The notes under the pieces: model-generated
Told to the model about the DNA's origin: nothing
Seen by the model: only the letters and a program-made list of their open reading frames with translations
Databases searched by the model: none
NCBI RefSeq assembly: GCF_020731145.1
Contig: NZ_JAJFZN010000003.1
Coordinates: 248,001 to 312,000, forward strand
Source of the DNA: Sneathiella sp. HT1-7
GTDB lineage: Bacteria; Pseudomonadota; Alphaproteobacteria; Sneathiellales; Sneathiellaceae
Length of the DNA stretch: 64,000 bases
Reading direction: 5' to 3'
Program-made: the position numbers and the translations under genes
In this document: one piece after another, positions 9,509 through 48,535 of the stretch
Position numbering within the stretch: the stretch's first letter is position 1
Layout: the number at the start of each line of letters is the position of its first letter

Positions 9509-9539
9509 TTTTTTAACTTCCCTCAGCTGCCTGAATACT

Positions 9540-9570
9540 AAACAGCGGCCCCTTAATTGGGTGGCTGTTT
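9540..9570 (+). terminator. Possible terminator after chrR
   Basis: An imperfect hairpin: AAACAGC at 9540-9546 pairs with GCTGTTT at 9564-9570, and an inner CCC/GGG pairing closes over a TTAATT loop. The T-run forms part of the 3' arm, so termination is plausible but weak. Confidence 0.4.
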
Positions 9571-9704
9571 CATGCTGAAATCTATCAGAATTCAACGGTT
9601 CGGCGGTTTTTGGGTTGCATTAGGAAACTCTTAATAGATTCAATTGTACTAATCGATGGAGAAGTACAAGGAACCGGAAAATTTATTTTATTAGGAGTTA
9701 ATAT

Positions 9705-10157: not shown

Positions 10158-10167
10158 GTAAACCTCC

Positions 10168-10204
10168 GCGTAGTACGGTCGTCTCAAAAACGGCCGTTCT
10201 ACGC
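10168..10204 (+). other. Long hairpin between the Cache gene and the chemoreceptor gene
   Basis: Two 14-base arms (10168-10181 and 10191-10204) match at 12 of 14 positions over a nine-base loop TCTCAAAAA, with perfect GCGTAG/CTACGC ends. No T-run follows. It could be an attenuator, an RNA-stabilising element protecting the upstream message, or a Rho-assisted terminator. Confidence 0.55.
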
Positions 10205-10235
10205 ACCGTATTGTAAAATGAGAAGGTAGAGGCTC

Positions 10236-12017: not shown

Positions 12018-12048
12018 TTGCGCAACCTGAAATCGAGAAACTAAATGG

Positions 12049-12082
12049 CGGCCCATGATGATTATTCATCATGGGCCGTTTT
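12049..12082 (+). terminator. Rho-independent terminator after the chemoreceptor gene
   Basis: A perfect 13-bp stem (12049-12061 with 12066-12078, GC-rich at its base) closes a TTAT loop and is followed by TTTT. It ends the Cache-MCP unit and separates it from the glycan locus. Confidence 0.88.
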
Positions 12083-12172
12083 AATGACCAGCAAGGCGAT
12101 CATCTTTGCCGTCCTTTTACCTTGCGGGATGCTCCTGAACGCGCCGTGAGCTGAGCAAAAAGGTAGTTTTTT

Positions 12173-12201
12173 CTGACAAATCCAGGGGAAGGATGTATAA
12201 G
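12173..12201 (+). promoter_or_regulatory. Possible sigma-70-type promoter of the radical SAM operon
   Basis: CTGACA (12173-12178), a 17-base spacer and TATAAG (12196-12201), about 40 bases before the ATG at 12242. One mismatch in the -35 and two in the -10 from the usual consensus. Confidence 0.4.
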
Positions 12202-12241
12202 GTTAACGCCTTTTCATCAAAACCGGATTACTGCAGGACTA

Positions 12242-33212: not shown

Positions 33213-33456
33213 ATCGACTGATTTTACACCTTCTAGTTTCAACCAAAAATGTTCCGTTGGTGGGGCGGTGCTGACAATATCAGCAGATTGCTAAGAATGA
33301 TACCTTGACTATACGCTAGCAGAAAATGTGAGTGATATAAAAAAGTCAGTTTCGTACTGGCAATTCAATCTCAGGGATTGTAAATCATTTCAGCAGCCGG
33401 TTGGCCCGGCCGGAGAATCGGGCATTGGGTATGTAGTCTTTGGAAGGACGAGAGCG

Positions 33457-33864
33457 ATGAAACAGTTTTTTAAATTAGCGATGGTGACCGCACTGGCAAT
33501 TTTGGTCAGCGGGTGCTTTGGGCGTGTTCAGCCTGTTTATAATGCCGAAGCTAATCCGGTTCCGGTCAAGCTTCAGGAAACATCCTTGGAAAATATTGGT
33601 ACAATCATCCAGACTGCCGCCATTAACCGTGGTTGGGTTGTCAACGAAGTTACGCCGGGCAAGATGAAGGCAACCTTGCACAACCGCACACATGTTGCAG
33701 TCATTGACATCACCTACTCCAAGAAAGACTATTCGATCAATTATGTTTCCAGCGTTGATTTGCTGTATGATGGATCGAAAATTCACCGGAGCTATAATAA
33801 ATGGATCCGGACCTTGCAGAACGATATCAACAAGAGTCTGAACGTCGCCGCCCTTCAGGCGTAA
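33457..33864 (+). CDS. Small lipoprotein at the head of the aryl polyene operon
   Basis: A 135-residue lipoprotein: MKQFFKLAMVTALAILVSGC is a signal peptide with lipobox VSGC. The mature part (IGTIIQTAAINRGWVV, VAVIDITYSKKDYSINYVSSVDLLYDG) is a small alpha/beta domain I do not recognise. The ATG at 33457 has AAGGA about ten bases before it; a longer start at 33328 would bury the signal peptide. It precedes apeC by nine bases on the same strand, so it is probably cotranscribed with the cluster. It may help place the aryl polyene lipid in the envelope; function is unknown. Confidence 0.75.
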   Translation: MKQFFKLAMVTALAILVSGCFGRVQPVYNAEANPVPVKLQETSLENIGTIIQTAAINRGWVVNEVTPGKMKATLHNRTHVAVIDITYSKKDYSINYVSSVDLLYDGSKIHRSYNKWIRTLQNDINKSLNVAALQA

Positions 33865-33873
33865 GGAAGGTTG

Positions 33874-34608
33874 ATGGAGGCGGGGATTCCTTTTGCGGTT
33901 CAGCGCTGGTCTGCTTGGGCACCGTCCCTCGATAGTCCAGAGGCATGGCGACTATGGGCTGACGACGATGTCGGCTTGCCAGTCGAGGAGGCCACGCCGG
34001 ATGTGCGTGACCTCCCGGCAGGACTGCGTCGACGACTTTCCCGGTTGGGTAAAGTTGCATTACGTGTCGCTATGGATGTCGAGGTAGAAGAGGCTCCCCG
34101 TGTTGTTTTCAGCTCTCGCAACGGCAATGTAACGCAAATGTTGTCGTTGCTGAAAAGCCTGGCGGTGGAGGAGCCTATTTCCCCCACCGGTTTTGGTATG
34201 TCGGTGCATAACTCTCTTGCCGGTATGTTGTCCATTGTCAGTAAAAACCGAGCGGCGCAGACAGCGATTGCCGCTGGTGAGGAAAGCCTGTGTCTGGGCC
34301 TAATAGAGGCATTGACATGTCTTAAGGAAGACCCGATCTCACCGGTATTGCTGTTGCATGCTGATGAAACACTCCCTGATTTCTATTCGCCCTTCCAGGA
34401 TGCTGATGTGCCCGTCTGTGCACTGGCGCTGCTCATCAGTAAAGCGAAGGACGGTGGAGAGGCATATTCCCTCGGATTTTCCGGTACAGAGACACGGCCT
34501 GCGCCGGGGGATCCGCTCACAAGTTTTATTCGGTTTCTACTGCGTGGGGAAACTGATTGGAACTGGTCCGGCCCGGAGGGTGACTGGTCGTGTCGCCGCC
34601 ATGCTTGA
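33874..34608 (+). CDS. apeC: ApeC-like ketosynthase chain-length factor (Ketoacyl-synt_2)
   Basis: A 244-residue half-length ketosynthase-like protein. It carries the KS-fold core FGMSVHNSLAGMLSIVSKN and AIAAGEESLCLGLIEALTCL, but no TACxS nucleophile Cys, so it cannot condense acyl groups itself. In aryl polyene (APE) systems ApeC pairs with the true ketosynthase ApeO as a chain-length factor. The ATG at 33874 follows AAGGAAGG; the stop overlaps apeD by eight bases. It is the first of the cluster genes and the order after it matches E. coli apeC-apeR. Confidence 0.85.
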   Translation: MEAGIPFAVQRWSAWAPSLDSPEAWRLWADDDVGLPVEEATPDVRDLPAGLRRRLSRLGKVALRVAMDVEVEEAPRVVFSSRNGNVTQMLSLLKSLAVEEPISPTGFGMSVHNSLAGMLSIVSKNRAAQTAIAAGEESLCLGLIEALTCLKEDPISPVLLLHADETLPDFYSPFQDADVPVCALALLISKAKDGGEAYSLGFSGTETRPAPGDPLTSFIRFLLRGETDWNWSGPEGDWSCRRHA

Positions 34609-35374
34609 CCGGTTAAATTATGTCTGGCGGTTGATCGGGACGGGCCTCGCCTTTGCCTTCTTTGGTCTTGGCGGCATATTTATGACAATTTTTATTTTTG
34701 CGCCCATTGCCTTTTTTACCAAGGATGAAACGTCGCGCATTCGCCGTGTACGTAAAACCATTTATTACGCCTTTCGGGTTTTCGTTTATCTGCTTCGGGT
34801 CGGTGGCATTATTGACTCCCGCTTCCATGATACTGAAAGAATTAAGGATGTGCGCGGGGCTCTTATCGTCGCCAATCATCCATCATTGCTCGATACGGTC
34901 TTTCTGATGTCGCGGATGCCCAATGTGCAATGTATCGTCAAGCATGAGCTCTGGAACAATACCTATCTTGGCGGCGTGATGCGTGCGGCGGGATATATCC
35001 GCAATGATGGTGATGCGGAAATGATGCTGGCTCAGTGTGAGAAGGCCCTGAAGAACGGACAGAACATTCTGGTCTTCCCCGAAGGCACCCGGTCAGTGCC
35101 GGGGCAGGCGCTTAAATTCCAGCGCGGAGTCGCCAATATTGCAACGCATTTCAGCGCCCCAATCCAGCTAGTGACAATAATATGCAAACCGTCAACCTTA
35201 ACGAAAGGAAGTCCCTGGTATGCTATCCCTCCGCGCCAGGCTCGTTTTGATATTACCTTTGACGAACAACTGGACATGACCGACTATCTGAGGCATGAAC
35301 CAAGGTCATTAAAGGTACGCAAGCTCACGCGTGAGTTGGAGCAGTATTATGTTGGAAAACTTTGCAATGAATGA
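34601..35374 (+). CDS. apeD: ApeD-like 1-acylglycerol-3-phosphate acyltransferase-type protein
   Basis: A 257-residue PlsC-family acyltransferase. Two N-terminal hydrophobic stretches (about 10-45) precede the catalytic motif IVANHPSLLDTVFL (HX4D) near 90 and FPEGTRSVPGQALKFQRG near 160. The ATG at 34601 overlaps the apeC stop; a longer start at 34358 would run through apeC and is rejected. In APE clusters this enzyme is proposed to attach the polyene acyl chain to a glycerol-type anchor. It probably acts on the cytoplasmic face of the inner membrane. Confidence 0.88.
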   Translation: MLDRLNYVWRLIGTGLAFAFFGLGGIFMTIFIFAPIAFFTKDETSRIRRVRKTIYYAFRVFVYLLRVGGIIDSRFHDTERIKDVRGALIVANHPSLLDTVFLMSRMPNVQCIVKHELWNNTYLGGVMRAAGYIRNDGDAEMMLAQCEKALKNGQNILVFPEGTRSVPGQALKFQRGVANIATHFSAPIQLVTIICKPSTLTKGSPWYAIPPRQARFDITFDEQLDMTDYLRHEPRSLKVRKLTRELEQYYVGKLCNE

Positions 35375-35636
35375 TTTTGAATTTGAAATTAAGAAGCTGG
35401 TGATCAAGACCTTGAACCTTGAGGATATTACGCCCGAGGAGATTGACAGTGAGGAGCGCCTGTTCGTGGATGGGTTGGGGCTCGATTCAATCGATGCATT
35501 GGAACTCGGTGTTGCCATACAGAAAACCTACGGCATTAAAATTAATAACAAAACTGATGATTTGAAGGAGCATTTCGCTTCTGTGCGCAATCTCGCGCGC
35601 TTCATTACATCCGAAAGGAAGGTAGTAGGGGCATGA
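35367..35636 (+). CDS. apeE: ApeE-like acyl carrier protein
   Basis: An 89-residue acyl carrier protein with the phosphopantetheine site GLGLDSIDALELGV (Ser in DSI). The preferred start is the ATG at 35367 (MNDFEFEIKKL), overlapping the apeD stop; upstream in-frame ATGs at 35331 and 35349 are possible. It overlaps apeF by four bases. In APE synthesis ApeE and ApeF are the two carriers: one loads the aryl starter, the other carries malonyl and the growing chain. Which does which cannot be read from sequence. Confidence 0.9.
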   Translation: MNDFEFEIKKLVIKTLNLEDITPEEIDSEERLFVDGLGLDSIDALELGVAIQKTYGIKINNKTDDLKEHFASVRNLARFITSERKVVGA

Positions 35637-35878
35637 ACCGCGACGAGATATATGAAAAACTTCGCGAATATCTTGAAGATATGTTCGAAGTTCCGCCGGA
35701 CCTCATTTCCGAAGACGCTCAGCTTTATGAAGATCTGGATCTTGATAGCATCGATGCGGTGGATCTGGTCGTCAAGCTGCAGGATCTGACGGGAAAGAAA
35801 ATTCCACCTGATGAATTCCGGACTGTGCGCTCGGTAGGTGATGTGGTGGATCGGGTTCATGCCCTCTTGGCGGCTTAA
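35633..35878 (+). CDS. apeF: ApeF-like acyl carrier protein
   Basis: An 81-residue acyl carrier protein with DLDSIDAVDLVVKLQ, the Ser for phosphopantetheine at about 43, and an acidic helix II as usual. It is translationally coupled to apeE by a four-base overlap and to apeG by an overlap of about 20 bases. A tandem ACP pair of this kind is a constant feature of aryl polyene clusters. Confidence 0.9.
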   Translation: MNRDEIYEKLREYLEDMFEVPPDLISEDAQLYEDLDLDSIDAVDLVVKLQDLTGKKIPPDEFRTVRSVGDVVDRVHALLAA

Positions 35879-36437
35879 AGCAGGGCCGCTGGACCTTCTG
35901 CTCGTCCTGATCAGTATTGCCTATCCCTTTATCGTCTATTTCGGACTGATGAAATTTTCCCCGTTGGTTGTCGGACTGGCGCTTGTCGCTTTTCTAATTC
36001 TGCGCCTTTTGTTAAACAAAAGCCGGCAGACACGCAAATCGGAAGCCTGGATATATCTGCTCGTGCTGGGCGCGGTTGTTGCTCTGCTGGCGATCAATGA
36101 AATGCTCGCTATCAAGGCTTATCCCGTGCTGATCAGTCTTTCCTTCGCGGCGGTCTTTGCTTATTCCCTGATTTACCCACCGCCAATAATCGAACGGTTT
36201 GCACGGATGATGGAAGGCGAGCTTGATGCTCAGGCGATGAATTATACGCGTCATGTGACGGAGGCCTGGGTCATTTTCTTTCTCGTTAATGCCTCCATTT
36301 CGCTCTGGACGGCGCTACACGCCGATCTGGCCTTATGGACCCTTTACAATGGATTTATTTCATATTTGTTGATTGGCCTGATGTTCGGGGGAGAATATAT
36401 TCTCCGGTTGTTTGTGAAACGCAAAAAAGTGAGTTAA
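35859..36437 (+). CDS. apeG: ApeG-like integral membrane protein (COG4648 type)
   Basis: A 192-residue protein with about six hydrophobic segments (PLDLLLVLISIAYPFIVYFG, VVGLALVAFLILRLLL, WIYLLVLGAVVALLAI, YPVLISLSFAAVFAYSLIY and two more). ERFARMMEGELDAQAMNYTRHVTEAW in the middle is a typical loop of the COG4648 family seen in aryl polyene and xanthomonadin clusters. Start at 35859 (MPSWRLKAG) is the likeliest; 35838 is also in frame. Function is not known; it may assist transfer or export of the lipid. Confidence 0.82.
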   Translation: MPSWRLKAGPLDLLLVLISIAYPFIVYFGLMKFSPLVVGLALVAFLILRLLLNKSRQTRKSEAWIYLLVLGAVVALLAINEMLAIKAYPVLISLSFAAVFAYSLIYPPPIIERFARMMEGELDAQAMNYTRHVTEAWVIFFLVNASISLWTALHADLALWTLYNGFISYLLIGLMFGGEYILRLFVKRKKVS

Positions 36438-37826
36438 TTGGTGTTTACCCCGCTATCGAAATTGCTATCCTCCAGCCATGACAGAGAAACACTCGTCGCG
36501 ACCACGCCGGACGGCGTGAAGACTTTCAATGACTTAAGCCATGAAGTTGCGGATATTTGCGTCCGATTAAAGGAACAGAATATACGTAAGCTGGTGCTGG
36601 CCACCACAAGCAGCTATGCCTTCGCAACCGGATTCTTGGCGGCGCTGCATGCCGATTGCCGTATCGTTGTGCCGCCCAATGCCTTGCCGGGAATGCTAGC
36701 ACATTTTGTGGGCAAGGACTGTCCGCTTCTTTCCGATATTGAGGGGGCAGGGGGTGATCATCAGATTTTGATTGATGGCTCAAAAGGGGCGATCACTGAC
36801 TTCAAGGAGCTTGACCCTGATCGCTCATATCTTGATTTTTATACGTCTGGTTCCACGGGCACTCCAAAAAGGGTGCCCAAGACGCTTTCGCAGATTGAGA
36901 ATGAACTGGTAGTTCTGGATGAGAGATGGGGACGTGAACTGGAAGGCGCGGCAACACTTGGGACCGTTAGCCATCAGCATATCTTTGGCCTTTACTTCAA
37001 GCTCCTCCTCCCGCTGTGTGAGGGGCGGTTGTTTTTTTCGCAAACCTTTGAGATCTGGGAGGAGTTGCTCGCCGTCGCGCCTCCTGCTGCCTGTTTTGTC
37101 TCCAGTCCGGCGCATCTGACACGTATTCCACCGTTTGATCCATTGCCCGCAGAAGAAATGGCACCGGTAATATTCACGGCCGGTGGCCCCTTGCCGTTTG
37201 AGGCCGCTGAAGATGCACGCGCAAAGTTTGGCCCGCTTCCGACGGAGGTATTCGGCAGCACCGAAACCGGCGGTGTCGCCCATCGTCAGCAGGAACAACA
37301 GCGCACGCCCTTCACGCCGCTTCCAGGCATGCAGACACGGATTGATGCGCAAGGGCTGCTCAGTGTAAAATCAAATTATACCGATGGTAAAGATTGGGAT
37401 ACGACTAATGACATAGTTGAACGGCTTGATGACGGAAGTTTTATCTTGATGGGACGGGCTAATCAGTTCGTTAAAATTGAAGGAAAGCGCATTTCCCTTG
37501 CTGAAGTCGAGAAATATCTGGCCCAATCGGATTTAGTCGCGGAAACAGCAGTCTTTATCCTTAAAGAAGAGCAGGAAACTCTTGTCGCAGTGGTCGAGTT
37601 AAGCCCGGCTGGCTGGCAGCGCCATCAAGAAATCGGTGCTTTTCGTTTGGGGCGCGCCTTGCGGCGGGATCTTTCGCCTAACCTGGAGAATGCGGCGCTG
37701 CCGAAGCGCTGGCGTTTTGTTAAGCGGATACCCATTAATGCTCAAGGTAAACGTCAGCAACCGGCTTTGAACGAACTATTTGCCGGTCCCGGCAGGTCGG
37801 AACTAAACTATCCTGATCATGACTGA
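36438..37826 (+). CDS. apeH: ApeH-like aryl/acyl-ACP ligase (AMP-binding)
   Basis: A 462-residue ANL-superfamily ligase. The P-loop is LDFYTSGSTGTPKRVPKT near residues 133-150, the second motif FGSTETGGVAHRQQ, and the catalytic Lys near the end is in PINAQGKRQQPAL. In APE pathways ApeH activates an aromatic acid such as 4-hydroxybenzoate and loads it on an ACP. The start is TTG 36438 or GTG 36441, with GTGAG before it; the adjacent start codons make the exact N-terminus uncertain. It is shorter than typical acyl-CoA synthetases, as expected for this group. Confidence 0.88.
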   Translation: MVFTPLSKLLSSSHDRETLVATTPDGVKTFNDLSHEVADICVRLKEQNIRKLVLATTSSYAFATGFLAALHADCRIVVPPNALPGMLAHFVGKDCPLLSDIEGAGGDHQILIDGSKGAITDFKELDPDRSYLDFYTSGSTGTPKRVPKTLSQIENELVVLDERWGRELEGAATLGTVSHQHIFGLYFKLLLPLCEGRLFFSQTFEIWEELLAVAPPAACFVSSPAHLTRIPPFDPLPAEEMAPVIFTAGGPLPFEAAEDARAKFGPLPTEVFGSTETGGVAHRQQEQQRTPFTPLPGMQTRIDAQGLLSVKSNYTDGKDWDTTNDIVERLDDGSFILMGRANQFVKIEGKRISLAEVEKYLAQSDLVAETAVFILKEEQETLVAVVELSPAGWQRHQEIGAFRLGRALRRDLSPNLENAALPKRWRFVKRIPINAQGKRQQPALNELFAGPGRSELNYPDHD

Positions 37827-38199
37827 AAACGCTGAAATAAAATGGTCAAATATCCGCCACTTTCCTGAAATTCGCAGTCAACAGCGAGACGGGGACATCA
37901 TTGAGATTGAACTTTTTGTGGATGCGGGCCTTTTTCAGTTTCAGGGGCATTTCCCGAATGAGCCGGTGTTGCCTGGCGTGGCGCAAATTGACTGGGCTGC
38001 ACAGCTTGGCCGGGAGCATTTTGGTTTTAACGGGCCATTCACGCGCATGGGCCAGCTTAAATTTTCAAGATTGATCGTTGCGGATAGTCTTCTCTTTCTC
38101 CGCCTGGAATGGAACCGGGAAAAGCGGCGTCTTATTTTCTCCTACCGGGATGGGGATGAGACCTGCTCATCAGGGTATTTTGAACTGACGGCACCATGA
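37819..38199 (+). CDS. apeI: ApeI-like hotdog dehydratase (His-bearing half)
   Basis: A 126-residue hotdog-fold protein with FQGHFPNEPVLPGVAQIDWAAQ style motif (GHFPNEPVLPGVAQIDWAAQ, about residues 38-57). The catalytic His of FabA/FabZ (GHFP) is present, but the acidic residue of FabZ (IIEAMAQ) is Asp (QIDWAAQ). The second dehydratase-like gene, apeP at 46126, has the Glu but no GHFP His. In APE systems ApeI and ApeP are reported to form a heterodimeric dehydratase. It overlaps apeH by eight bases. Confidence 0.87.
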   Translation: MTENAEIKWSNIRHFPEIRSQQRDGDIIEIELFVDAGLFQFQGHFPNEPVLPGVAQIDWAAQLGREHFGFNGPFTRMGQLKFSRLIVADSLLFLRLEWNREKRRLIFSYRDGDETCSSGYFELTAP

Positions 38200-39896
38200 A
38201 TTTTTCCCTCGCGGCCATTGTGCCGAGCTATAATCATTATCGCCATATCGACAAGGTAATCGGGGCGCTGAAGGGACAAGGGCTTCGCGTTTTTATTATC
38301 GATGATGGCTGCGAGGAGCCGGCAAAATCCGAGTTGGAGAAATTTCATGACCCGGAAGAGGGGGTGACGCTCCATAGTCAGCCACAGAACAGCGGCAAGG
38401 GGGCGGCCGTGATGGCTGGATTTCGTCTCGCCGCAGCGGAGGGCTTCACTCACGCCTTACAGATTGACGCGGATGGACAACATGATGTCGACGCTCTCCC
38501 GGCACTGATTGACCTCGCGGTGGTACATCCCGAGGCGTTGATCAGTGGTCAGCCGATTTATGATGAAACAATACCGGCCTCCCGAAAATTTGCCCGCTGG
38601 ATCACCCATGTCTGGGTCTGGGTTGAAACGCTATCGACAACGATTACGGATAGTATGTGTGGATATCGGATATATCCGCTGAATGCGACGATTGACGTCA
38701 TCGATAGTGAGCCAGTCGGCCATTATATGGATTTTGATACCGAGATCATGGTGCGAATATATTGGCGCGGCACTCCGGTCCGGATGTTGCCAATCCATGT
38801 GACCTATCCTGAGGACAATATCTCTAATTTCCGTCTTGGTGCAGATAACTGGCTGATTACCAAGATGCATACGCGGCTCGTTCTCGGGATGCTCACTCAG
38901 GTGCCCAAGATTTTGCGCAATCGGAGAGGCGATATACAAGAGCCGCGACATTGGGGAAGTATAGGTGAGCGAGGGGCGGCGCTTGGCCTGAAGATACTCT
39001 TTTCCTTATATCGTATTGCCGGGCGTCGGTTCTGCTGGTACGCGATGCAGCCCGTGCTTCTCTATTTTTTTGTGACCGGGCGGGAACAGCGCGAAGCGTC
39101 GCGCGGCTTTTGGCGTCGAGTATACGTGGCGCAGGGCGAGGTGCGAGAGCCGAACATTTGGCAACTCTGGCGGCATTATCGTTCCTTTGGGGCGATGGCA
39201 CTCGATAAACTGGCAGCCTGGATCGGTCATATCCGCCTCAACGATATTGTTGAAGAAGACCTCGGCATGTTGGACAAGTTAGCGGAACGGAAGTCTGGCG
39301 TTATGGTGGTGACATCGCATCTTGGCAATGTGGATATTCTTCGTGCCGTCGGTGCGGCACGCGGCATTAAAAACATCACAGTCTTCGCTCATACGCGCAA
39401 CGCCGTCCGCTTTAACGAGATATTGAGCGAGGCTAATCCAGCCGCAACAGTTGATATTATGGAAGTGCAGGATATAGGTCCTGCCACGCTTATCCTTCTT
39501 GAGGAGAAGCTTGCGGCAGGCAACTGGATTGTGATTGCAGGTGACCGAATTCCATTAGAAGGCGGCAAGCGTATTCGGAACATTGATTTTCTGGGTGAAC
39601 CGGCGCCTTTTTCAGAGGGAGCGTGGATCATAGCGGCATTGCTCGGCAGTCCGGTCTATTCGCTTCATTGTCTTCGCGACGAGAAAAAATACCGTATTCT
39701 GTTCGAAAAGATTACAGATCGGGTCAAGCGCGGGCGTCCACCGCACGATGGTCTGGCGGAACCAATGCAGGGTTATGCGAAAATCTTGCAGGAAAATTGC
39801 CTAAAGTATCCGGAGCAATGGTATAATTTCTATGATTTCTGGGCCGCGCCAGAAAAGAAACCCTTACCGGTTAAGAGTAACAAGGAAACAACATGA
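38196..39896 (+). CDS. apeJ: ApeJ-like fused GT2 glycosyltransferase and lipid acyltransferase
   Basis: A 566-residue two-domain protein. The N-terminal GT2 domain (1-230) has AAIVPSYNHYRHIDKVI, FIIDDGCEE and QIDADGQHD (DxD-like). The C-terminal part (about 300-555) is an HtrB/LpxL-type acyltransferase with VVTSHLGNVDILRAVG (HX4D near 374) and IAGDRIPLEGGKRIRN. In APE clusters this fusion is proposed to link a sugar and an acyl chain to the polyene. It is membrane-associated at the inner face. Length and order match the family; it overlaps apeI and apeK by four bases each. Confidence 0.88.
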   Translation: MNFSLAAIVPSYNHYRHIDKVIGALKGQGLRVFIIDDGCEEPAKSELEKFHDPEEGVTLHSQPQNSGKGAAVMAGFRLAAAEGFTHALQIDADGQHDVDALPALIDLAVVHPEALISGQPIYDETIPASRKFARWITHVWVWVETLSTTITDSMCGYRIYPLNATIDVIDSEPVGHYMDFDTEIMVRIYWRGTPVRMLPIHVTYPEDNISNFRLGADNWLITKMHTRLVLGMLTQVPKILRNRRGDIQEPRHWGSIGERGAALGLKILFSLYRIAGRRFCWYAMQPVLLYFFVTGREQREASRGFWRRVYVAQGEVREPNIWQLWRHYRSFGAMALDKLAAWIGHIRLNDIVEEDLGMLDKLAERKSGVMVVTSHLGNVDILRAVGAARGIKNITVFAHTRNAVRFNEILSEANPAATVDIMEVQDIGPATLILLEEKLAAGNWIVIAGDRIPLEGGKRIRNIDFLGEPAPFSEGAWIIAALLGSPVYSLHCLRDEKKYRILFEKITDRVKRGRPPHDGLAEPMQGYAKILQENCLKYPEQWYNFYDFWAAPEKKPLPVKSNKETT

Positions 39897-40303
39897 TATC
39901 GGCGGATATTACTCTGAAATGTCAATTTTATGATCTTGATCCGATGGGAATTGTCTGGCATGGCAATTATGCCCGATACTTTGAGCAGGCCCGATGTGCC
40001 CTCCTAGACAAGATGGACTATAATTATGAGCAGATGAGCGAGAGCGGCTTCGCCTGGCCAATTGTCGATATGCGCATCAAATATATCCGATCGATCCGGT
40101 TTGGTCAGGAAGTGCGGGTCGCCGCTGACCTTGCGGAATATGAAAATCGGCTGAAAATCAATTACCAGATCACGGATGTAGACACGGGTGAGCGGCTGAC
40201 ACGGGGATTTACAATTCAGGTGGCGATTGATAAGAACTCCGAGGAAATGCTGTTTCAGTCACCACCCATTCTATTTCGAAAAGTTGAAGCTCTGCTGTGC
40301 TAA
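39893..40303 (+). CDS. apeK: ApeK-like thioesterase (4HBT family)
   Basis: A 136-residue hotdog thioesterase. The 4-hydroxybenzoyl-CoA thioesterase active site is FYDLDPMGIVWHGNYARYFE, with the catalytic Asp in DPMG. The rest (FGQEVRVAADLAEYENRLKI) matches the fold. It overlaps apeJ by four bases and the GTG start of apeL by seven. It may release stalled or finished acyl chains from ACP. Confidence 0.88.
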   Translation: MISADITLKCQFYDLDPMGIVWHGNYARYFEQARCALLDKMDYNYEQMSESGFAWPIVDMRIKYIRSIRFGQEVRVAADLAEYENRLKINYQITDVDTGERLTRGFTIQVAIDKNSEEMLFQSPPILFRKVEALLC

Positions 40304-40905
40304 AATCAATCCGCCTGTTCATATGCGCCATGATTATTTTGGCTGCGTTTCCGGTCCGGTCGGCTCCGCTGATCCTGGGCGAGGGGGAGGCGGTGATGGG
40401 CCGGTTTGTTCAGGCTCGGTACTTGCGCGATTTCGACAGACCGATTCTATCGGAGGGGGAATTTTTCCTCCTGCCGAAATCGGCGTTGATCTGGCAGACG
40501 GAAAAGCCATTTTTCAGTCGCATGGTCATCGATGAAGATGGGCTCAGTCAGGGCTTGAAAGGCGCTGAGGTAACACGCCTCAGCTTCAAGCAGTTTCCTG
40601 GGTTTAAATTGTTGCGCGATACGCTTGAAAACAGCTTGAGTGGAAACTGGACACCGCTTGAGGAAATGGCAGGAACGAAGCTCCTTCCCGCGGATGAGAA
40701 ATATACGTTGCGCTTTTCTCCAAAAACCAGTGGCCTGACACTCCCCTTTGCCTATCTCAATTTCGAGATTGGTGACTTTCTGGAAACGGTAGAGATTGTG
40801 AAAAGCAACGGTGATCGCGATGTAATTACCTTCTCGGATCAAAAAGTGGCACCAGTGGCGGACGTCAGCGCAGCAGCTGATGCCGCCAAGGAAAAGCAGC
40901 CGTGA
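40297..40905 (+). CDS. apeL: ApeL-like outer-membrane lipoprotein carrier (LolA fold)
   Basis: A 202-residue secreted protein. Residues 1-22 (MLKSIRLFICAMIILAAFPVRSA) form a signal peptide. The following LolA-like domain has GEAVMGRFVQARYLRDFDRPILSEGEFFL and SALIWQTEKPF, the beta-rich pattern of LolA/LppC proteins. It starts at a GTG overlapping the apeK stop. In APE systems it is thought to carry the hydrophobic polyene across the periplasm to the outer membrane. The tail (ADVSAAADAAKEKQP) is low complexity. Confidence 0.85.
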   Translation: MLKSIRLFICAMIILAAFPVRSAPLILGEGEAVMGRFVQARYLRDFDRPILSEGEFFLLPKSALIWQTEKPFFSRMVIDEDGLSQGLKGAEVTRLSFKQFPGFKLLRDTLENSLSGNWTPLEEMAGTKLLPADEKYTLRFSPKTSGLTLPFAYLNFEIGDFLETVEIVKSNGDRDVITFSDQKVAPVADVSAAADAAKEKQP

Positions 40906-43226
40906 ATCGCGCTGGCCTCATGATCTATCTCGCTTTGCTGTGCAGTGCTATGGCGATTATCGGCTGGCGACTGCAAGATGGCCTTCCGCTTGATACCAAT
41001 ATCGTTGCAATGCTTCCCCAATCGGAAGAGGCGGAGTGGGTCGCCCGGGCCGAAGCCGCGGAAAGATCACAAGGTTCGAACCAGTTGATTGTCCTCGTCG
41101 GTCATCCCGACTTTGAAACTGCGCGGACTGCTGCGCTTGATCTCGGCAAGACGCTTGAAGAGAAGCGCATCGTTAATTTGACGCAGGACCAGCCGGACCA
41201 GTCGACATTGGTAAGCCTTAATGAACTCCTTTTTCCGCATCGTACGGGCTTGCTTGGCGAAGGGGATCGGCGCTTACTATCTGCCGGACAGGAGCAGGTT
41301 CTCGTCGATCGAGCGCTGGTGCAAATACTGTCCCCGCTTTCTCTTGCTGACGCAGAGATGATCCGGCGCGACCCTTTTTTACTTCTGCCCAATTATATCG
41401 CCGCCAGCACGGAAAATACCTCTAAACTCCAAAGCCGCGCCAATGTTCTCGCGGTTGAGGAAAATGAAAAATGGTTTGTTCTGGTCCGAGGGGAACTCGC
41501 CGGAAATCCGTTTGACAAGGGGTTTCAGTCCCGCGCGCGTAAGGTTTTTGATGAGGCGGAAGACAAACTCGAAAAGCGCCACGGAGATATCCAGATACTG
41601 AAAACTGGTGCTGTTTTCTATGGGGAGCATGCCTATCGGCAGGCCGAAGATGAGGCCGGATTTATCGGAATGATTTCTTTGCTTGGCATCATTATTCTAA
41701 ATTTTCTTGTTTTCCGGAGTTTTCAACCTCTCGCGCTCAGCCTCCTGGCCATCGCCTCGGGAATTGCAGGGGGGCTAGCCGTTACGCTTCTTTTTTTCGG
41801 AACTTTGCAGCTACTGGCTCTGGTCTTCGGCGCGGGGCTGATAGGAATTTCAGTGGATTATGCATTTCACTATTTCTGTGAACGCTTTAATCAGGCGTCA
41901 TCTGCGCCAGCAGCGCGGGCACGGGCCATTCGCTCCGGCCTGACGCTGGGGCTAGTCAGCTCGGTTCTCGGTTTTATCACTCTCGCCCTCACACCTTTTC
42001 CGGGACTTCAACAGATTGCCCTGTTTTCCGCATCCGGCCTGACGATGGCCTATCTAACGGTGCTGTATGTCTTTCCCTACCTTGATCGCGCGACGCCCTT
42101 TCGTCATGGAGAGAAATATCTCAATTTCTCAATGCTCCTTCATGATTTTTGGTGGAAAGACGCCACCCGAAAATGGCGATGGTTGTTCGTTTTCCTTCTA
42201 ATTATCGCAGGGGGGCTTGGCGCAATGCGCATAACGGTGGATGATGATGTTCGCCGATTACAGTCCTTGCCGCAGGACCTTCAGGCCGAAGAGCAAGCCA
42301 TCCGCATTCTTGCCGGAATTGAAAATCAGACCCACCGGTTTTTTGTACGTGGATCTAATCCTGATGAGGTGTTGCAGTCAGAAGAAGCGCTTGCGCTGGA
42401 TCTGGAGGCATTGCGGGCAAGCGGGATTATCGGAAGCTATCGGATGATTTCCCAGTTTGTGCCCTCCAAGGCGCGTCAGCTTGAAAATCAGGCCTTGGTA
42501 GATGAGTTGTTAATGCCTCATCTTGCCGAACATATGCAAACGATCGGGTTATCGAGGTTGTCTCCCTATCAACAGGGGGAGGGTGTTCTGACTATTGATC
42601 AGTTCACAGATGCCAACCTGCCGGGACTGTTTTCGCATCTTCGTGTTTATAAAACTCCCGGAATTGTCGTACATGCCGTATCGCTTTCCGGGGTGAACGA
42701 TACGGCTCCCCTCGCAAAGCTTGCCGAGAAGTCTGAAAATGTTGCCCTGATCAGTCAGGCGGACAGTCTCAGTAAGACCTTCGGTGCGTATCGCGTTCGT
42801 GCACTTATCATGCTTGCGGTCGCCTATGCCGTTGTTTGGGTTTTCCTGTCTTTACGGTATGGTATCCTTGGTGCGATCAAAGTCATGATCCCGTCCATGG
42901 GGGCTGTGATTCTTGCCCCGTGCCTGATCGCTCTGATGGGGGAGCCTTTTACGTTTTTCAACGCAATGTCTCTCATGCTGATATTCGCCATCGGCCTTGA
43001 TTATGCCCTCTTTAACCGAGAGGCGTCGGGGAAACGGCAACGCCGCGCCATGCTGGCCAATGGCCTGTCGACAATTTCGACCTTGCTGGCGTTCGGACTT
43101 CTGACGTTGAGCGATACTTTTGCCATTCATGCCTTCGGGATTACAATCCTCGTCGGTATTACATTAACCTATATTTTGGCGCCACGTGCTGCCGATCTTG
43201 AAAACCCCATGACGGAGCCTTTGTAA
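40902..43226 (+). CDS. apeM: ApeM-like MMPL/RND exporter
   Basis: A 774-residue transporter with two repeats, each a large periplasmic loop followed by about five or six membrane helices. Recognisable segments are VFGAGLIGISVDYAFHYFCERF (the conserved Asp in the membrane, about 315) and MLIFAIGLDYALFNREASGKRQ (the second, about 698). MMPL proteins use proton motive force to extract lipids from the inner membrane. Here it should export the aryl polyene lipid with help from ApeL and ApeN. It overlaps apeL by four bases and precedes the flavoprotein gene by one base. Confidence 0.9.
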   Translation: MNRAGLMIYLALLCSAMAIIGWRLQDGLPLDTNIVAMLPQSEEAEWVARAEAAERSQGSNQLIVLVGHPDFETARTAALDLGKTLEEKRIVNLTQDQPDQSTLVSLNELLFPHRTGLLGEGDRRLLSAGQEQVLVDRALVQILSPLSLADAEMIRRDPFLLLPNYIAASTENTSKLQSRANVLAVEENEKWFVLVRGELAGNPFDKGFQSRARKVFDEAEDKLEKRHGDIQILKTGAVFYGEHAYRQAEDEAGFIGMISLLGIIILNFLVFRSFQPLALSLLAIASGIAGGLAVTLLFFGTLQLLALVFGAGLIGISVDYAFHYFCERFNQASSAPAARARAIRSGLTLGLVSSVLGFITLALTPFPGLQQIALFSASGLTMAYLTVLYVFPYLDRATPFRHGEKYLNFSMLLHDFWWKDATRKWRWLFVFLLIIAGGLGAMRITVDDDVRRLQSLPQDLQAEEQAIRILAGIENQTHRFFVRGSNPDEVLQSEEALALDLEALRASGIIGSYRMISQFVPSKARQLENQALVDELLMPHLAEHMQTIGLSRLSPYQQGEGVLTIDQFTDANLPGLFSHLRVYKTPGIVVHAVSLSGVNDTAPLAKLAEKSENVALISQADSLSKTFGAYRVRALIMLAVAYAVVWVFLSLRYGILGAIKVMIPSMGAVILAPCLIALMGEPFTFFNAMSLMLIFAIGLDYALFNREASGKRQRRAMLANGLSTISTLLAFGLLTLSDTFAIHAFGITILVGITLTYILAPRAADLENPMTEPL

Positions 43227-43227
43227 A

Positions 43228-44460
43228 ATGACAGTAAGTTCCGATCATTTCGACGTTATTGTTATCGGTGCAGGTCCGGCGGGGGCGCTTGCGTCAATAC
43301 GTCTCGCGCAAGAGGGACTGAATGTCGCGATGCTGGAGAAAAGCAGCTTTCCCCGCTTTGTCATTGGCGAGAGTTTACTCCCTCAGTCCATGGTGTTTAT
43401 GGAGAAAGCGGGTTTGCTGTCGCGGTTGGCGGCGGCAGGATTCCAGCATAAAGATGGCGCAAATTTTTCTGATGATACTCGGTTCAGCTCAATCAAATTT
43501 TCTGAAAAATCCGGCGAAGGGCCGGGGAACACTTATCAAGTGGAGCGGGAAAAATTTGATTCGCTTCTGGCGGACGCTGCCGTTGACGCAGGGGTAGATC
43601 TTCGTTTTCATCAAGATGTGACGGCTGTCGAATTTAATGAGGCGGGCACCGTGATCGTGGGGAAGGGGGCGGAGGGCGCCTTTCGACATACAGCGCGTTT
43701 TCTTGTGGATGCAAGCGGATATGGAAGGGTATTGCCGCGTTTGATGAAATTGGATGCTCCATCAGATTTTCCCGTGCGTCATGCGCTTTTCACTCATGTA
43801 GAAGACCAGCTGGCAACGCGTGATTTCGATCGCAACAAGATCCTGATTACGGTCCATCCACACTGCCGCGATATCTGGTTCTGGTTAATTCCGTTCGCAA
43901 ACGGTAAATCCTCCGTGGGGGCAATTGTGCCACCGGAGGAACTCAGGAAATATCCGGGAACGCCTTCTGAAAAACTTTGGGCGATCATCAATGAAACGAA
44001 AGAGCTAAAAGACCTTCTCAGGGATGCCCGGGAACTGCGACCTGTTGGAGAGATGTCGGGATACTCGACAAAAGTTTCCCGCCTTGCCGGACCGCAATTT
44101 GCCCTTCTTGGCAATGCCGGGGAGTTTCTCGATCCGGTGTTTTCTTCCGGCGTCACGGTGGCCTTCAAATCAGCGGACCTCCTGATTGAACCATTGATGC
44201 GCCAGTTAAATGGAGAAAATGTGGATTGGGAGGCGGACTTCGCGCAGCCGCTTCAAGTCGGGGTGGACTGCTTTCGTGCCTTTGTGGAGGCATGGTACAG
44301 CGGCGAGTTGCAGGACGTAATTTTTAACCCGCCGAGAGATGACAACCCGATCAAGCAGATGATTGTTTCTATCCTGGCGGGCTATGCCTGGGATGAGAAA
44401 AATCCTTTTGTATTGCAGGGGCCACGATATCTGGACATGGTGGCACAGCAATGCGCGTAG
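43228..44460 (+). CDS. FAD-dependent oxidoreductase, halogenase-like (WxWxIP motif)
   Basis: A 410-residue flavoprotein. FAD motif VIVIGAGPAGALASIRLA is at 10-27; FPRFVIGESLLPQSMVF follows; Lys75 in GFQHKDGANF aligns with the catalytic Lys of flavin-dependent halogenases, and W217-F-W219-L-I221-P222 is the WxWxIP motif that blocks normal monooxygenase chemistry. FAD-binding halogenases use FADH2, oxygen and halide to chlorinate or brominate phenols. The E. coli ape cluster lacks this gene; xanthomonadin pigments, a related family, are brominated. It lies between apeM (one-base gap) and apeN (overlaps by ten bases), so it is an integral part of the operon. Geranylgeranyl-reductase-type oxidation is the main alternative. 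Confidence 0.82.
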   Translation: MTVSSDHFDVIVIGAGPAGALASIRLAQEGLNVAMLEKSSFPRFVIGESLLPQSMVFMEKAGLLSRLAAAGFQHKDGANFSDDTRFSSIKFSEKSGEGPGNTYQVEREKFDSLLADAAVDAGVDLRFHQDVTAVEFNEAGTVIVGKGAEGAFRHTARFLVDASGYGRVLPRLMKLDAPSDFPVRHALFTHVEDQLATRDFDRNKILITVHPHCRDIWFWLIPFANGKSSVGAIVPPEELRKYPGTPSEKLWAIINETKELKDLLRDARELRPVGEMSGYSTKVSRLAGPQFALLGNAGEFLDPVFSSGVTVAFKSADLLIEPLMRQLNGENVDWEADFAQPLQVGVDCFRAFVEAWYSGELQDVIFNPPRDDNPIKQMIVSILAGYAWDEKNPFVLQGPRYLDMVAQQCA

Positions 44461-44951
44461 CCGTTTTTCTTCTTCTCCTGATCGGAGTTTCCGCCTGTGC
44501 AACCGCACCGGAACATGCGACGGACTTCGCGCCATGGAAGTTACCGGAGGAACAGCCGCGGGAAGTCGTCCAGGTTTTGAATGGACGCCATAGTGATAAT
44601 TCTTTCTCTTTACAGGTTCGGATGAGCCTGACGGAAGAAAAAATGCAAATTGCTGGATTGGATTCGTTCGGTCGTCGTGCGTTTGATATTCTCTGGGATG
44701 AGAACGGTGTAAGGGCTGGCAAAGCGGACTGGGTGTCCGATGACCTTGATGCCATTGATATCCTTAAAGTAATCGTCGCAGCCTACTGGCCGGAGAATGA
44801 CCCGATGCAGGTGCGGGTGGCAGATCGGGCAGAGCAGTTAGAAATCACCTATCAGAGTGGTCGCAAGAATGCCTGGAATGAAACCGTGCAAATCCGCGAC
44901 CCGGCGGCGAATTATGAATTGACTATTGTTTCCTATGAGTTGACCGAATGA
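44451..44951 (+). CDS. apeN: ApeN-like DUF3261 lipoprotein
   Basis: A 166-residue lipoprotein with signal peptide and lipobox MRVAVFLLLLIGVSAC, so Cys16 is probably lipidated. The mature domain (FSLQVRMSLTEEKMQIAGLDSFGRRAFDILWDENG) is DUF3261, a family found in APE and xanthomonadin clusters. It overlaps the flavoprotein gene by ten bases and apeO by four. It probably assists insertion of the polyene lipid at the outer membrane. Confidence 0.87.
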   Translation: MRVAVFLLLLIGVSACATAPEHATDFAPWKLPEEQPREVVQVLNGRHSDNSFSLQVRMSLTEEKMQIAGLDSFGRRAFDILWDENGVRAGKADWVSDDLDAIDILKVIVAAYWPENDPMQVRVADRAEQLEITYQSGRKNAWNETVQIRDPAANYELTIVSYELTE

Positions 44952-46129
44952 CGGAACGCTACTATCTCAACGCCCTTGGTATGATCAACGCGCTTGGCGT
45001 TGGTAAGGCGGCAGTGGGCGCGGGATTGTTCGCGGGCGATACTTCGGGAATGCAACCGCAGGAAGGGTATCTTTTTGATCAGAAGGTGATGGCGGGCGCG
45101 GTTGCACAAGCCTTGCCGGAAATCACAGGTGACCTTGCCGGCTATGACAGCCGTAATAACCGAATGTTACTCGTAGCAATGCAGGAGATAGAAGGCGATA
45201 TCCGTACGGCCATTGATAAATACGGACCGGACCGGGTTGCCGTCATTCTTGGCACAAGTACTTCCGGGATCAGCGATAATGAACCCGGCATCGCCGAGAA
45301 AGTAAAGAGCGGGAGTTTCCCCGAGGGATTTGACTACAATCGTCAGGATAATGCCTCTCTTGCCTTATTCGCGCGATCCTACTTCGGTTTGTCAGGACTT
45401 GCCATGACGATTTCAACGGCCTGTACTTCCAGTGCCAAGACGCTTGCTTCAGCCCGGCGGATGATGGCGGCGGGCCTTTGCGATGCGGCGATTGTAGGCG
45501 GGGCAGATACGCTTTGCCGCCTGACAATGAACGGCTTTGCGTCCCTCGATCTGCTCTCTCCGGAGCTTTGCAATCCATTCAGCCAAAATCGCAATGGTAT
45601 CAATATCGGAGAGGGGGCCGCCGTGTTCCTGATGAGCAGGGAACCATCGTCTGTCCGCATCGCCGGGATCGGTGAGACTTCCGATGCCTACCATATGAGT
45701 ACGCCGGACCCTGAAGGTCTGGGTGCCCTAAATGCCATGCATCAGGCACTCGATCAAAGCGGTTTTACACCCGAGGATATTGCCTATCTCAATCTTCATG
45801 GGACAGCGACCGAACTCAATGACAGTGTTGAGGCGAAAGCGGTGTACGAGTTGCTAGGAGCGGTGCCCTGCAGCTCAACCAAGCCGCTGACGGGTCATAC
45901 GCTCGGCGCAGCAGGAAGTACGGAACTCGGCTTTCTGTGGCTCGCGCTAAAGTCAGAGGCGGGAATGTTGCCACCGCATATCTGGGATGAAGTGGTAGAC
46001 CCTGAACTGCCACCACTAAAGCTTGTGCCCACAGGGATGGCGGGGTCCGATGCACGCGCGATGATGACAAACTCCTTTGCTTTTGGCGGGAACAATATTA
46101 GCGTAATCCTCAGTAAAGAGGGGGAATGA
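44948..46129 (+). CDS. apeO: ApeO-like beta-ketoacyl synthase
   Basis: A 393-residue ketosynthase with a full Cys-His-His triad: TISTACTSSAKTLASARRM (nucleophile Cys, about 160), NLHGTATELND (His, about 284) and STKPLTGHTLGAAGSTE (Lys and His, about 310-320). NSFAFGGNNISVIL at the end is typical of FabF-type enzymes. In APE systems ApeO pairs with the CLF-like ApeC to elongate the polyene. It overlaps apeN and apeP by four bases. The likely reaction is repeated condensation of malonyl units onto the aryl-ACP starter. Confidence 0.92.
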   Translation: MTERYYLNALGMINALGVGKAAVGAGLFAGDTSGMQPQEGYLFDQKVMAGAVAQALPEITGDLAGYDSRNNRMLLVAMQEIEGDIRTAIDKYGPDRVAVILGTSTSGISDNEPGIAEKVKSGSFPEGFDYNRQDNASLALFARSYFGLSGLAMTISTACTSSAKTLASARRMMAAGLCDAAIVGGADTLCRLTMNGFASLDLLSPELCNPFSQNRNGINIGEGAAVFLMSREPSSVRIAGIGETSDAYHMSTPDPEGLGALNAMHQALDQSGFTPEDIAYLNLHGTATELNDSVEAKAVYELLGAVPCSSTKPLTGHTLGAAGSTELGFLWLALKSEAGMLPPHIWDEVVDPELPPLKLVPTGMAGSDARAMMTNSFAFGGNNISVILSKEGE

Positions 46130-46548
46130 TGCAAGCCTGCCCTTACGACATTACAGAAATTCTTTATCATGCGCCGCCGATGATCCTGATTGACGGGGTG
46201 GCTGCTTATAATGAAACCGCCGTTGAGTCTGTGGTGAAGATTACGGCAGAAAGCCCGTTTGTTGAAAAGGGCGCTGTGCCCGCTTATGTCGGAATTGAGT
46301 ATATGGCTCAAACCATTGCCGCCTATAGTGGGATCAAGGCGCGTAATGCCGGTGAAGGCGTCAAGATCGGTTATCTCGTTAGCTCCAGAAATATGACATT
46401 GAACTGCTCTGACTTTTTGATAGGAGACAGGCTGAATGTAAAAGTTGAGCTGGTATATGACGAAACGCCGATGGCGGTCTTTGATGGAACGATCTACCGG
46501 GCGGAAGAGCTTGTCGCTAAAGCTCGGCTTAATGTATACCAACCTTAA
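46126..46548 (+). CDS. apeP: ApeP-like hotdog dehydratase (Glu-bearing half)
   Basis: A 140-residue hotdog-fold protein with HAPPMILIDGVAAYNE and VPAYVGIEYMAQTIAAYSG. The Glu in GIEYMAQ fits the acidic catalytic residue of FabZ (IIEAMAQ), but the His of GHFP has no counterpart: the matching stretch reads SPFVEKGAVP. ApeI at 37819 has the complementary His. It probably works only as a heterodimer with ApeI, dehydrating 3-hydroxyacyl-ACP to give the conjugated double bonds. A four-base overlap couples it to apeO; it may start at ATG 46126 or 46129. Confidence 0.87.
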   Translation: MMQACPYDITEILYHAPPMILIDGVAAYNETAVESVVKITAESPFVEKGAVPAYVGIEYMAQTIAAYSGIKARNAGEGVKIGYLVSSRNMTLNCSDFLIGDRLNVKVELVYDETPMAVFDGTIYRAEELVAKARLNVYQP

Positions 46549-46568
46549 AAATAATCGCGTGAAAATGA

Positions 46569-47294
46569 ATGCAAAATAGAATTCTAGTTACAGGGGCAAG
46601 CGGCGGGATAGGCCGTGCCGTTGCGCTGCGGCTCGCACAGGATGGCTTTGATATTGTCGCCCATTGCGGCCGCAATCGTGATGCCGGGTTGGGAACAGTT
46701 GAGTTGATTGAGGCAGCGGGCGGACAGGCTCGATTGGTTCAGTTCGATATTGCCGATCGAGATCAATGTCGGGATATACTGGAAGCTGATGTTGAAGAAT
46801 TCGGTGCTTTTTATGGTGCGGTATTGAACGCAGGAATTACCCGGGATACTGCCTTTCCGGCCATGACCGATGACGACTGGGATGCCGTTATTCACACTAA
46901 CCTTGATAGTTTTTACAATGTGCTAAAACCCATTACCATGCCGATGGTATCAGCCCGAAAGGGCGGGCGAATTGTGGTTATGTCCTCGGTTTCAGGGGAG
47001 ATGGGTAATCGCGGGCAGGTGAATTACAGTGCGTCGAAGTCTGGTCTGATCGGGGCGGCGAAATCGCTCGCGCTGGAACTTGCAAAACGGAAAATCACGG
47101 TCAACTGCGTGGCGCCGGGCTTGATTGAATCGGCGATGACAGATGACCTGCCGCTCGATGAAATTATGAAAATGATCCCGCTACGTCGCCTTGGCGATGT
47201 GGATGAGGTAGCGGCGACGGTCTCGTTTTTATGCTCTGATGGCGCCGCCTATATCACGCGGCAGGTAATCTCTGTAAACGGAGGGATGGCGTAA
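46569..47294 (+). CDS. apeQ: ApeQ-like 3-oxoacyl-ACP reductase (FabG type)
   Basis: A 241-residue SDR of FabG type: VTGASGGIGRAVALRLAQDG, LNAGITRDTAFPAMTDDDWD, MSSVSGEMGNRGQVNYSASKSG (catalytic Ser and Tyr-xxx-Lys) and the C-terminal YITRQVISVNGGMA. It reduces the 3-keto group on each elongation round, using NADPH. It starts 20 bases after apeP and its stop shares one base with the apeR start (TAATG), coupling the two. Confidence 0.92.
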   Translation: MQNRILVTGASGGIGRAVALRLAQDGFDIVAHCGRNRDAGLGTVELIEAAGGQARLVQFDIADRDQCRDILEADVEEFGAFYGAVLNAGITRDTAFPAMTDDDWDAVIHTNLDSFYNVLKPITMPMVSARKGGRIVVMSSVSGEMGNRGQVNYSASKSGLIGAAKSLALELAKRKITVNCVAPGLIESAMTDDLPLDEIMKMIPLRRLGDVDEVAATVSFLCSDGAAYITRQVISVNGGMA

Positions 47295-48535
47295 TGCAGC
47301 GCGTTGTTGTTACAGGCATGGGCGGCGTAACCTCACTGGGGGAAGAGTGGAATACGATTTCAGAAAAAATGCGTGCGGGAGAAACCGGTATTCAGCGCAT
47401 GGAAAGCTGGGATTTTTATGATGGCCTGAATACCCGTCTCGCCGGACCGGTGGAAGGGTTCAATATTGACAAGAGATATTCGAGAAAAGCGCTTCGCAGT
47501 ATGGGGCCCGTCTCAAAAATGGCCGTTTATGCGACGGAGCAGGCGCTGGAGATGGCGGGCCTTCTGGAAGACCCAGTGATTAAATCCGGGAAGATGGGGG
47601 TGGCCTATGGTTCCTCCTTCGGCAGTACGAAGCCGGTCATCGCCTTTACAGATTTGATAAGGGATGGTCACTCGCGTGATCTGACTGCCACCAGCTATGT
47701 CAAGATGATGAGCCATACGACAGCGGTCAATATTGGTGTTTTCTTTGGCCTTGCGGGGCGTGTCATTCCGACCTCTAGCGCCTGTACCTCTGGTAGCCAA
47801 GGTATCGGCTATGCCTATGAAGCGATTAAATATGGAATGCAGGATCTTATGGTTGCTGGCGGGGCGGAGGAGCTTTGTCCAACCATGGCGGCGGTATTCG
47901 ATACGCTTTATGCCACCAGTATCAAGAACGATACCCCGCATTTATCTCCGCGCCCGTTTGATAAAGATCGGGACGGCCTTGTGATCGGGGAAGGGGCGGC
48001 AACGCTGGTTCTGGAATCCTATGATCATGCTGTGGCGCGCGGTGCTCCGATACTGGCTGAAATCGTTGGCTTTTCCACTAATTCAGATGGTCGTCATATC
48101 ACCAACCCCACTCAGGCAACAATGGAAGTTGCGATGCAGGGCGCGCTTGATAATGCGGGGCTGATTGCCTCGGATATCGACTTTATCAGCGGGCATGGCA
48201 CCGCGACAGAGCAGGGGGATATCGCCGAAACTCATGCAACTGATAAAGTGATGGGATCAAATATTCCTATCCATTCCCTCAAAAGCTATTTTGGTCATAG
48301 CCTGGGTGCATGCGGCGCAATCGAGGCCTGGCTCGGCATTGAAATGATGCGGGAGGGATGGTTCGCCCCGACAGTCAACCTCGACAACGTCGATGACGCC
48401 TGCGCCGAGATTGATTATGTCACTGGAGAGGGGCGGAACGTTGCCGTCCGTCACCTGATGAGCAATAATTTTGCCTTTGGCGGCATTAACAGTTCACTCA
48501 TCTTTCGGAACGCTGCCGAAAGCGGGTCTAGTTAA
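47294..48535 (+). CDS. apeR: ApeR-like beta-ketoacyl synthase
   Basis: A 413-residue ketosynthase with the full triad: IPTSSACTSGSQGIGYAYEA (Cys, about 162), SGHGTATEQGD (His, about 300) and IHSLKSYFGHSLGACGAIE (Lys and His, about 335-345). It ends with MSNNFAFGGINSSLIF. It is the second complete ketosynthase of the cluster and in E. coli works as a homodimer. It ends the long operon, converging on the PilZ gene by eight bases. Confidence 0.92.
   Translation: MQRVVVTGMGGVTSLGEEWNTISEKMRAGETGIQRMESWDFYDGLNTRLAGPVEGFNIDKRYSRKALRSMGPVSKMAVYATEQALEMAGLLEDPVIKSGKMGVAYGSSFGSTKPVIAFTDLIRDGHSRDLTATSYVKMMSHTTAVNIGVFFGLAGRVIPTSSACTSGSQGIGYAYEAIKYGMQDLMVAGGAEELCPTMAAVFDTLYATSIKNDTPHLSPRPFDKDRDGLVIGEGAATLVLESYDHAVARGAPILAEIVGFSTNSDGRHITNPTQATMEVAMQGALDNAGLIASDIDFISGHGTATEQGDIAETHATDKVMGSNIPIHSLKSYFGHSLGACGAIEAWLGIEMMREGWFAPTVNLDNVDDACAEIDYVTGEGRNVAVRHLMSNNFAFGGINSSLIFRNAAESGSS

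Follow-up and report, generated by a model that had tools for sequence, protein, structure and literature searches.

The window, by which we mean the whole 64,000-nucleotide stretch of Sneathiella sp. HT1-7 DNA that was analysed, carries at 43228-44460 on the plus strand an intact open reading frame of 410 aa, assigned from the frame itself, its motifs and its alignment as a flavin-dependent halogenase-like protein (hereafter FLV). The gene sits within an operon at 33328-48535 whose genes all lie on the plus strand, in the order A-C-D-E-F-G-H-I-J-K-L-M-FLV-N-O-P-Q-R (ape gene names follow PMC8253772). The genes expected of an aryl polyene cluster are present and in order, namely the core ApeC, ApeE, ApeF, ApeH, ApeI, ApeO, ApeP, ApeQ and ApeR together with the transport genes ApeL, ApeM and ApeN.

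The operon opens with an ApeA-like lipoprotein gene (33328-33864), recognised by its position and, with our own profile, by its resemblance to the leading gene in ape clusters elsewhere, with no Pfam match. It is followed directly by ApeC, a chain-length-factor-like ketosynthase (33871-34608; Pfam PF13723, 1.9e-53), the ApeB methyltransferase not lying between the two, and by the acyltransferase ApeD (34358-35374; PF01553, 2.7e-21 from residue 155), whose true start probably lies downstream of its first ATG, given the overlap with ApeC. Next come two acyl carrier proteins, ApeE and ApeF (35331-35878; PP-binding, 9.5e-10 and 1.1e-12), which are candidate carriers of the halogenation substrate, then ApeG (35838-36437), named by position and with a weak IspA-like match under the cut-off, and the AMP ligase ApeH (36438-37826; AMP-binding, 5.7e-17), probably the ligase for the aryl starter. 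The dehydratase ApeI, the glycosyltransferase/acyltransferase ApeJ and the thioesterase ApeK (37819-40303) lead to the LolA-like carrier ApeL (40297-40905; NCBIfam LolA2_flexi, 1.4e-9, under its cut-off).

The first-pass annotation had called this an APE operon and held the flavoprotein gene to be coupled to apeM and apeN, and on both counts it was right. The MMPL/RND-type exporter ApeM (40902-43226; Pfam MMPL, 1.5e-7; name again per PMC8253772) has its stop 1 base short of the FLV start, while apeN, encoding a DUF3261 LolB-like protein (44451-44951; PF11659, 1e-15), begins inside FLV and overlaps its end by 10 bases; the ketosynthase ApeO, the dehydratase ApeP, the ketoreductase ApeQ and the ketosynthase ApeR follow at 44948-48535. 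No ammonia-lyase or ApeB-type methyltransferase match was obtained among the genes of the operon, and no UbiC-family chorismate lyase was found in the genome with a search whose E. coli control was positive. The genome encodes two flavin reductase domains, both on other contigs, and has no second close FLV homolog.

Orthologs with 72-90% identity to FLV occur in five records, four from Sneathiella and one from an uncultured alphaproteobacterium. They are under purifying selection, with dN of 0.05-0.20 against dS of 0.84-1.98, the upper dS values being close to saturation. A further genome of the same genus (G222, locus L142) has the same operon, but its flavoprotein is 48% identical, compared with the 72-90% of the Sneathiella records, which suggests that the operon was acquired separately within the genus.

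Halogenase motifs and residue 296

FLV contains a GxGxxG nucleotide-binding motif (GAGPAG, 14-19), Lys75, the WxWxIP motif that the first-pass annotation had placed at 217-222 and that reads WFWLIP there, GNA at 295-297, and FLDPVFSSG at 300-308, which matches Fx.Px.Sx.G, a published flavin-dependent halogenase motif (PMC7336383). The halogenase marks are real, and chance is excluded by control reading frames: among 1302 non-family frames of at least 300 aa from the loci with operon layouts, WxWxIP occurred in none, Fx2Px2SxG in 5, the Lys pattern in 1 and all three together in none. At the same loci WxWxIP and Fx2Px2SxG were each found in 71/71 family frames and all three marks in 70/71, the Lys pattern being applied more loosely to the family than to the controls. 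In the alignment columns of WxWxIP, the two Trp and the Ile are present in 126/126 family rows and the Pro in 125/126; the WTWQVP seen in many Bacteroidota-side rows lies at a different site and does not correspond to the motif position.

The alignment comprised 138 sequences: 66 from FLV's own clade, 48 from a flexirubin-side group that includes PDB 3nix, 12 of xanthomonadin type, 7 other solved halogenases and 5 QhpG monooxygenases. The catalytic position of Lys75, claimed by the first-pass annotation and named there as the point on which an alignment could overturn it, withstood this comparison. Lys occupies the column in all 7 other solved halogenases and in 0/5 QhpG rows, as well as in 65/65 rows with a letter in the own clade (one further row has a gap), 48/48 on the flexirubin side and 12/12 of xanthomonadin type; F300 and S306 are likewise missing from 5/5 QhpG rows. 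Two family assignments were rejected, the geranylgeranyl reductase family (TIGR02032; 116.5 bits, curated cut-off 158.8) and the QhpG monooxygenase (NF049967; 107.5 bits, cut-off 240), from whose rows the key residues of FLV also differ. Database records name homologs either 'tryptophan 7-halogenase' (H14) or 'NAD(P)/FAD-dependent oxidoreductase'.

Placement among the flavin-dependent halogenases is supported by both fold and tree, the structure-model alignment covering the window protein and 11 of 12 ortholog and relative loci (L002 was left out). In a single FastTree run, read as unrooted and with reference rows entered as aligned segments, FLV falls among characterised enzymes of this kind, with its clade closest to Bmp2, an ACP-dependent brominase (support 0.905); an unfinished IQ-TREE tree, without supports, gave the same groups.

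Residue 296 we take to be the second FAD motif position, GD elsewhere and GN here. The Asp of the GD motif holds the ribityl chain of FAD. The position is Asn in 114/114 rows of the own clade (66/66) and the flexirubin-side group (48/48), and Asp in the 24 rows of the xanthomonadin type (12/12), the other solved halogenases (7/7) and QhpG (5/5). Judged by the Asp, a trait common to the 7 other solved rows rather than one taken from a published group definition, FLV falls outside the PltA/Bmp2/Mpy16 group proper and is filed as its sister clade. Asn296 is neither for nor against halogenation; what it does, as a feature of the aligned sequences, is to set the own clade, together with its sister on the flexirubin side, apart as a subfamily.

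The fixation of Asn296 could nevertheless be read as a halogenase fold whose chemistry has been lost or altered, for example a reductase, an isomerase or an oxidant-handling polyene flavoprotein in which FAD binding is modified. Such a change would fit three observations: among NCBIfam models, geranylgeranyl reductase scores second; 3nix, the nearest solved structure, carries only the name 'flavoprotein/dehydrogenase'; and in the parts of the literature searched no halogenated product of any clade member was found. With the chemistry gone, however, Lys75 would be expected to have been lost somewhere, yet it is Lys in 125/125 lettered rows of both sister clades and the xanthomonadin type combined, and we consider this explanation unlikely.

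The group labels used here derive from the surroundings of the genes. 'Flexirubin-side' reflects gene context, with an ape-type ketoreductase or ketosynthase (at least 190 bits) near 20/22 such loci and absent at L161 and L010, and 'xanthomonadin-type' reflects gene order together with the Azoarcus table in PMC3949708, not Xanthomonas or Azoarcus sequences. The record of L010 (CP034120.1) is titled Glaciecola amylolytica, a name that looks wrong; genomes of its class also turn up in the phylum to which the Avrilella dinanensis genome belongs.

Distribution of the flavoprotein among ape clusters

The first-pass annotation took the flavoprotein to be special to this operon, a view that a survey of other genomes did not sustain. 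Among 397 evenly drawn Pseudomonadota genomes, covering 232 genera and with 391 of good quality, a close homolog (E at most 1e-60) is present in 52, our own included, and another 8 contain one that is distant (E at most 1e-40). ApeP exceeded its cut-off in 79 genomes of what is, from identical settings and totals, presumably the same sample, and 51 of these also carry a close flavoprotein homolog, within 20 kb of ApeP in 51/51; the gene is thus a widespread ape gene. One genome (G993) has the flavoprotein without ApeP, and 28 have ApeP without the flavoprotein. Twelve of the 28 belong to family f172, probably Enterobacteriaceae, in which 0/12 ApeP genomes and none of the 7 clusters with a gene layout contain the flavoprotein, so that the contrast drawn earlier with the E. 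coli cluster stands at the gene level. Outside this enterobacterial family, 51/67 sampled ApeP genomes carry it. Wider sampling found the flavoprotein in 7/289 Alphaproteobacteria (own genome included), in 46/296 genomes of the class of G293 and in 12/198 of the phylum of G292.

Gene layouts were counted by hand for 56 clusters with a close homolog, 51 from the Pseudomonadota sample and 5 from the Alphaproteobacteria sample. The flavoprotein directly follows apeM in 48/56; in 6, all of genus g314, it stands at a divergent operon start, with apeA beside it in 5; the remaining 2 are G780, without a detected apeM, and G993. That the gene adjoins the exporter and LolB-like genes in these 48 clusters, and not the starter genes, could be taken to mean that FLV is a true halogenase of something other than the aryl head group, such as the polyene chain, free hydroxybenzoate or a lipid carrier. 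Against this, the nearest characterised relative, Bmp2, acts on an ACP-bound aromatic (PMC5577590), and we give such substrates only a slight chance.

We rejected, on co-occurrence, a model in which the flavoprotein and the ApeB methyltransferase would replace one another at a single ring position. The two lie side by side in the 6 clusters of genus g314 (G916, G831, G991, G803, G931 and G888), 4 clusters (G1057, G878, G1043 and G926) have ApeB but not the flavoprotein, and several have neither, the absence of ApeB being scored from upstream stretches that covered 40 of the 56 clusters.

At loci without a close homolog, tblastn revealed no remnant in 19/20. The other locus, L273, encodes a 523-aa relative (22% identity) at 11715-13283, a member of another flavoprotein type, 523-524 aa long, that is also found at L280, L281, L283, L285, L286 and L288, between chain-length-factor-like and ApeG-like genes of divergent aryl polyene-like clusters in genus g292. 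Its motifs are WIWIIP, WVWVIP or WVWIIP and FADPFYSPG or FSDPFYSPG, and FxxKxG was present in none of the six examined.

The flavoprotein is dispensable because it is cleanly absent from the operon of G1051, where 9 bases separate the apeM and apeN reading frames, and present at the same place in the congeneric G969 and G827; this holds whether the state of G1051 is a loss or a gain. Such a clean absence from one of three congeneric operons may fit a tailoring step. In a Neisseria-like genome of 2.0 Mb (G901, locus L133), the flavoprotein at 9201-10426 is split into two reading frames, with most of the operon still recognisable.

Proposed role in head-group tailoring

FLV is, in our view, probably a halogenase of the single-component, FADH2-dependent kind, whose task would be to modify the phenolic head group of an aryl polyene; this view rests on Lys75 and on the linkage to ape operons. 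A free flavin reductase would supply FADH2, O2 would form the C4a-hydroperoxide on the flavin, and chloride or bromide, which cannot be told apart from sequence, would attack it to give HOX, to be positioned by Lys75 or converted there into a haloamine. Halogenation of the ring would follow, most likely at a position ortho to the phenol OH, either with the aryl acyl group still bound to one of the ape acyl carrier proteins, in the way that Bmp2 handles ACP-bound pyrrole, or alternatively on the finished aryl polyene. The same C4a-hydroperoxide could instead hydroxylate the aryl head group, with no halide involved, making FLV an aromatic hydroxylase comparable to p-hydroxybenzoate hydroxylase, an outcome we hold to be improbable.

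Published work on related pigments bears on the halogenase reading from both sides. In its favour, halogenation is a known head-group change in xanthomonadin (PMC8253772), alterochromides are no longer brominated once altN is deleted (PMC5577590), and the pigment made by Lysobacter, where the halogenase gene of the Xanthomonas clusters is missing, is non-brominated (PMC3691225). Against it, arcuflavin (C41H52O4) is reported to carry no bromine, despite the 'halogenase' in the table of its cluster (PMC3949708), and two published accounts of the Acinetobacter baumannii ape cluster, in the passages searched, mention neither a halogenase nor a flavoprotein, in a species that has a homolog of 46% identity.

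As a halogenase FLV would be ordinary in kind, with the clade-specific residue and a broad prediction as what is added. A 'halogenase' gene beside aryl polyene ketosynthases is already in print (PMC3691225, Figure 5 legend; PMC3949708, table). Among the open main texts searched, as far as they were available, we found no statement assigning a halogenase to the apeM-apeN slot or reporting a test of its product, and the available part of a halogenase-mining preprint (PMC12871659) mentions neither polyenes, xanthomonadin nor flexirubin. If a working halogenase is what this slot encodes, halogenated pigments would be expected from roughly two thirds of the sampled ApeP-positive Pseudomonadota (51/79) and may then be common, the same gene sitting in the ape operons of many bacteria. 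Tentatively, we also raise the possibility that the Asn296 sister clades are an undescribed halogenase subfamily for aryl polyene and flexirubin-type pigments, and that most carriers outside the enterobacterial family make halogenated membrane pigments, missed as E. coli-type clusters without the gene are among the best studied.

Comparison with known systems

AltN of the alterochromide cluster, needed for bromination of the aryl polyene chain (PMC5577590), is likened to FLV by description, not by sequence. Among 59 genomes of genus g292, 13 gave some match, 2 of which (G956 and G1173) are the ape-type gene, and none was identifiable as AltN.

The xanthomonadin-type flavoproteins, called 'halogenase' in work on Xanthomonas and Azoarcus, resemble FLV in lying within aryl polyene clusters and in having the Lys and WxWxIP in 12/12 rows each. 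They differ in gene order, in Asp296 and in sequence (32-35% identity in the eight distant-match genomes, 30% in Azospirillum), and 10/12 rows form a branch of their own (support 0.87 or less) that lies outside the characterised halogenases, with two elsewhere. The analogy with brominated xanthomonadins that had been drawn for this locus is therefore loose and not supported, since the flavoprotein of that type is a separate and more distant branch and since arcuflavin is non-brominated.

The halogenases PltA, Mpy16 and ChlB4 (26-27% identity to FLV) form a separate group whose tree position is weakly supported (0.32). Bmp2 (5bva, 5bul), a brominase acting on pyrrolyl-ACP, is 25-26% identical and differs from FLV in its aromatic substrate and in having Asp rather than Asn at position 296. 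The closest solved structure is 3nix from Cytophaga hutchinsonii, released in 2010 under a title that names it only as a flavoprotein/dehydrogenase; it belongs to the sister clade, in another phylum, and if the reading of FLV as a head-group halogenase is true, a function would be suggested for 3nix as well.
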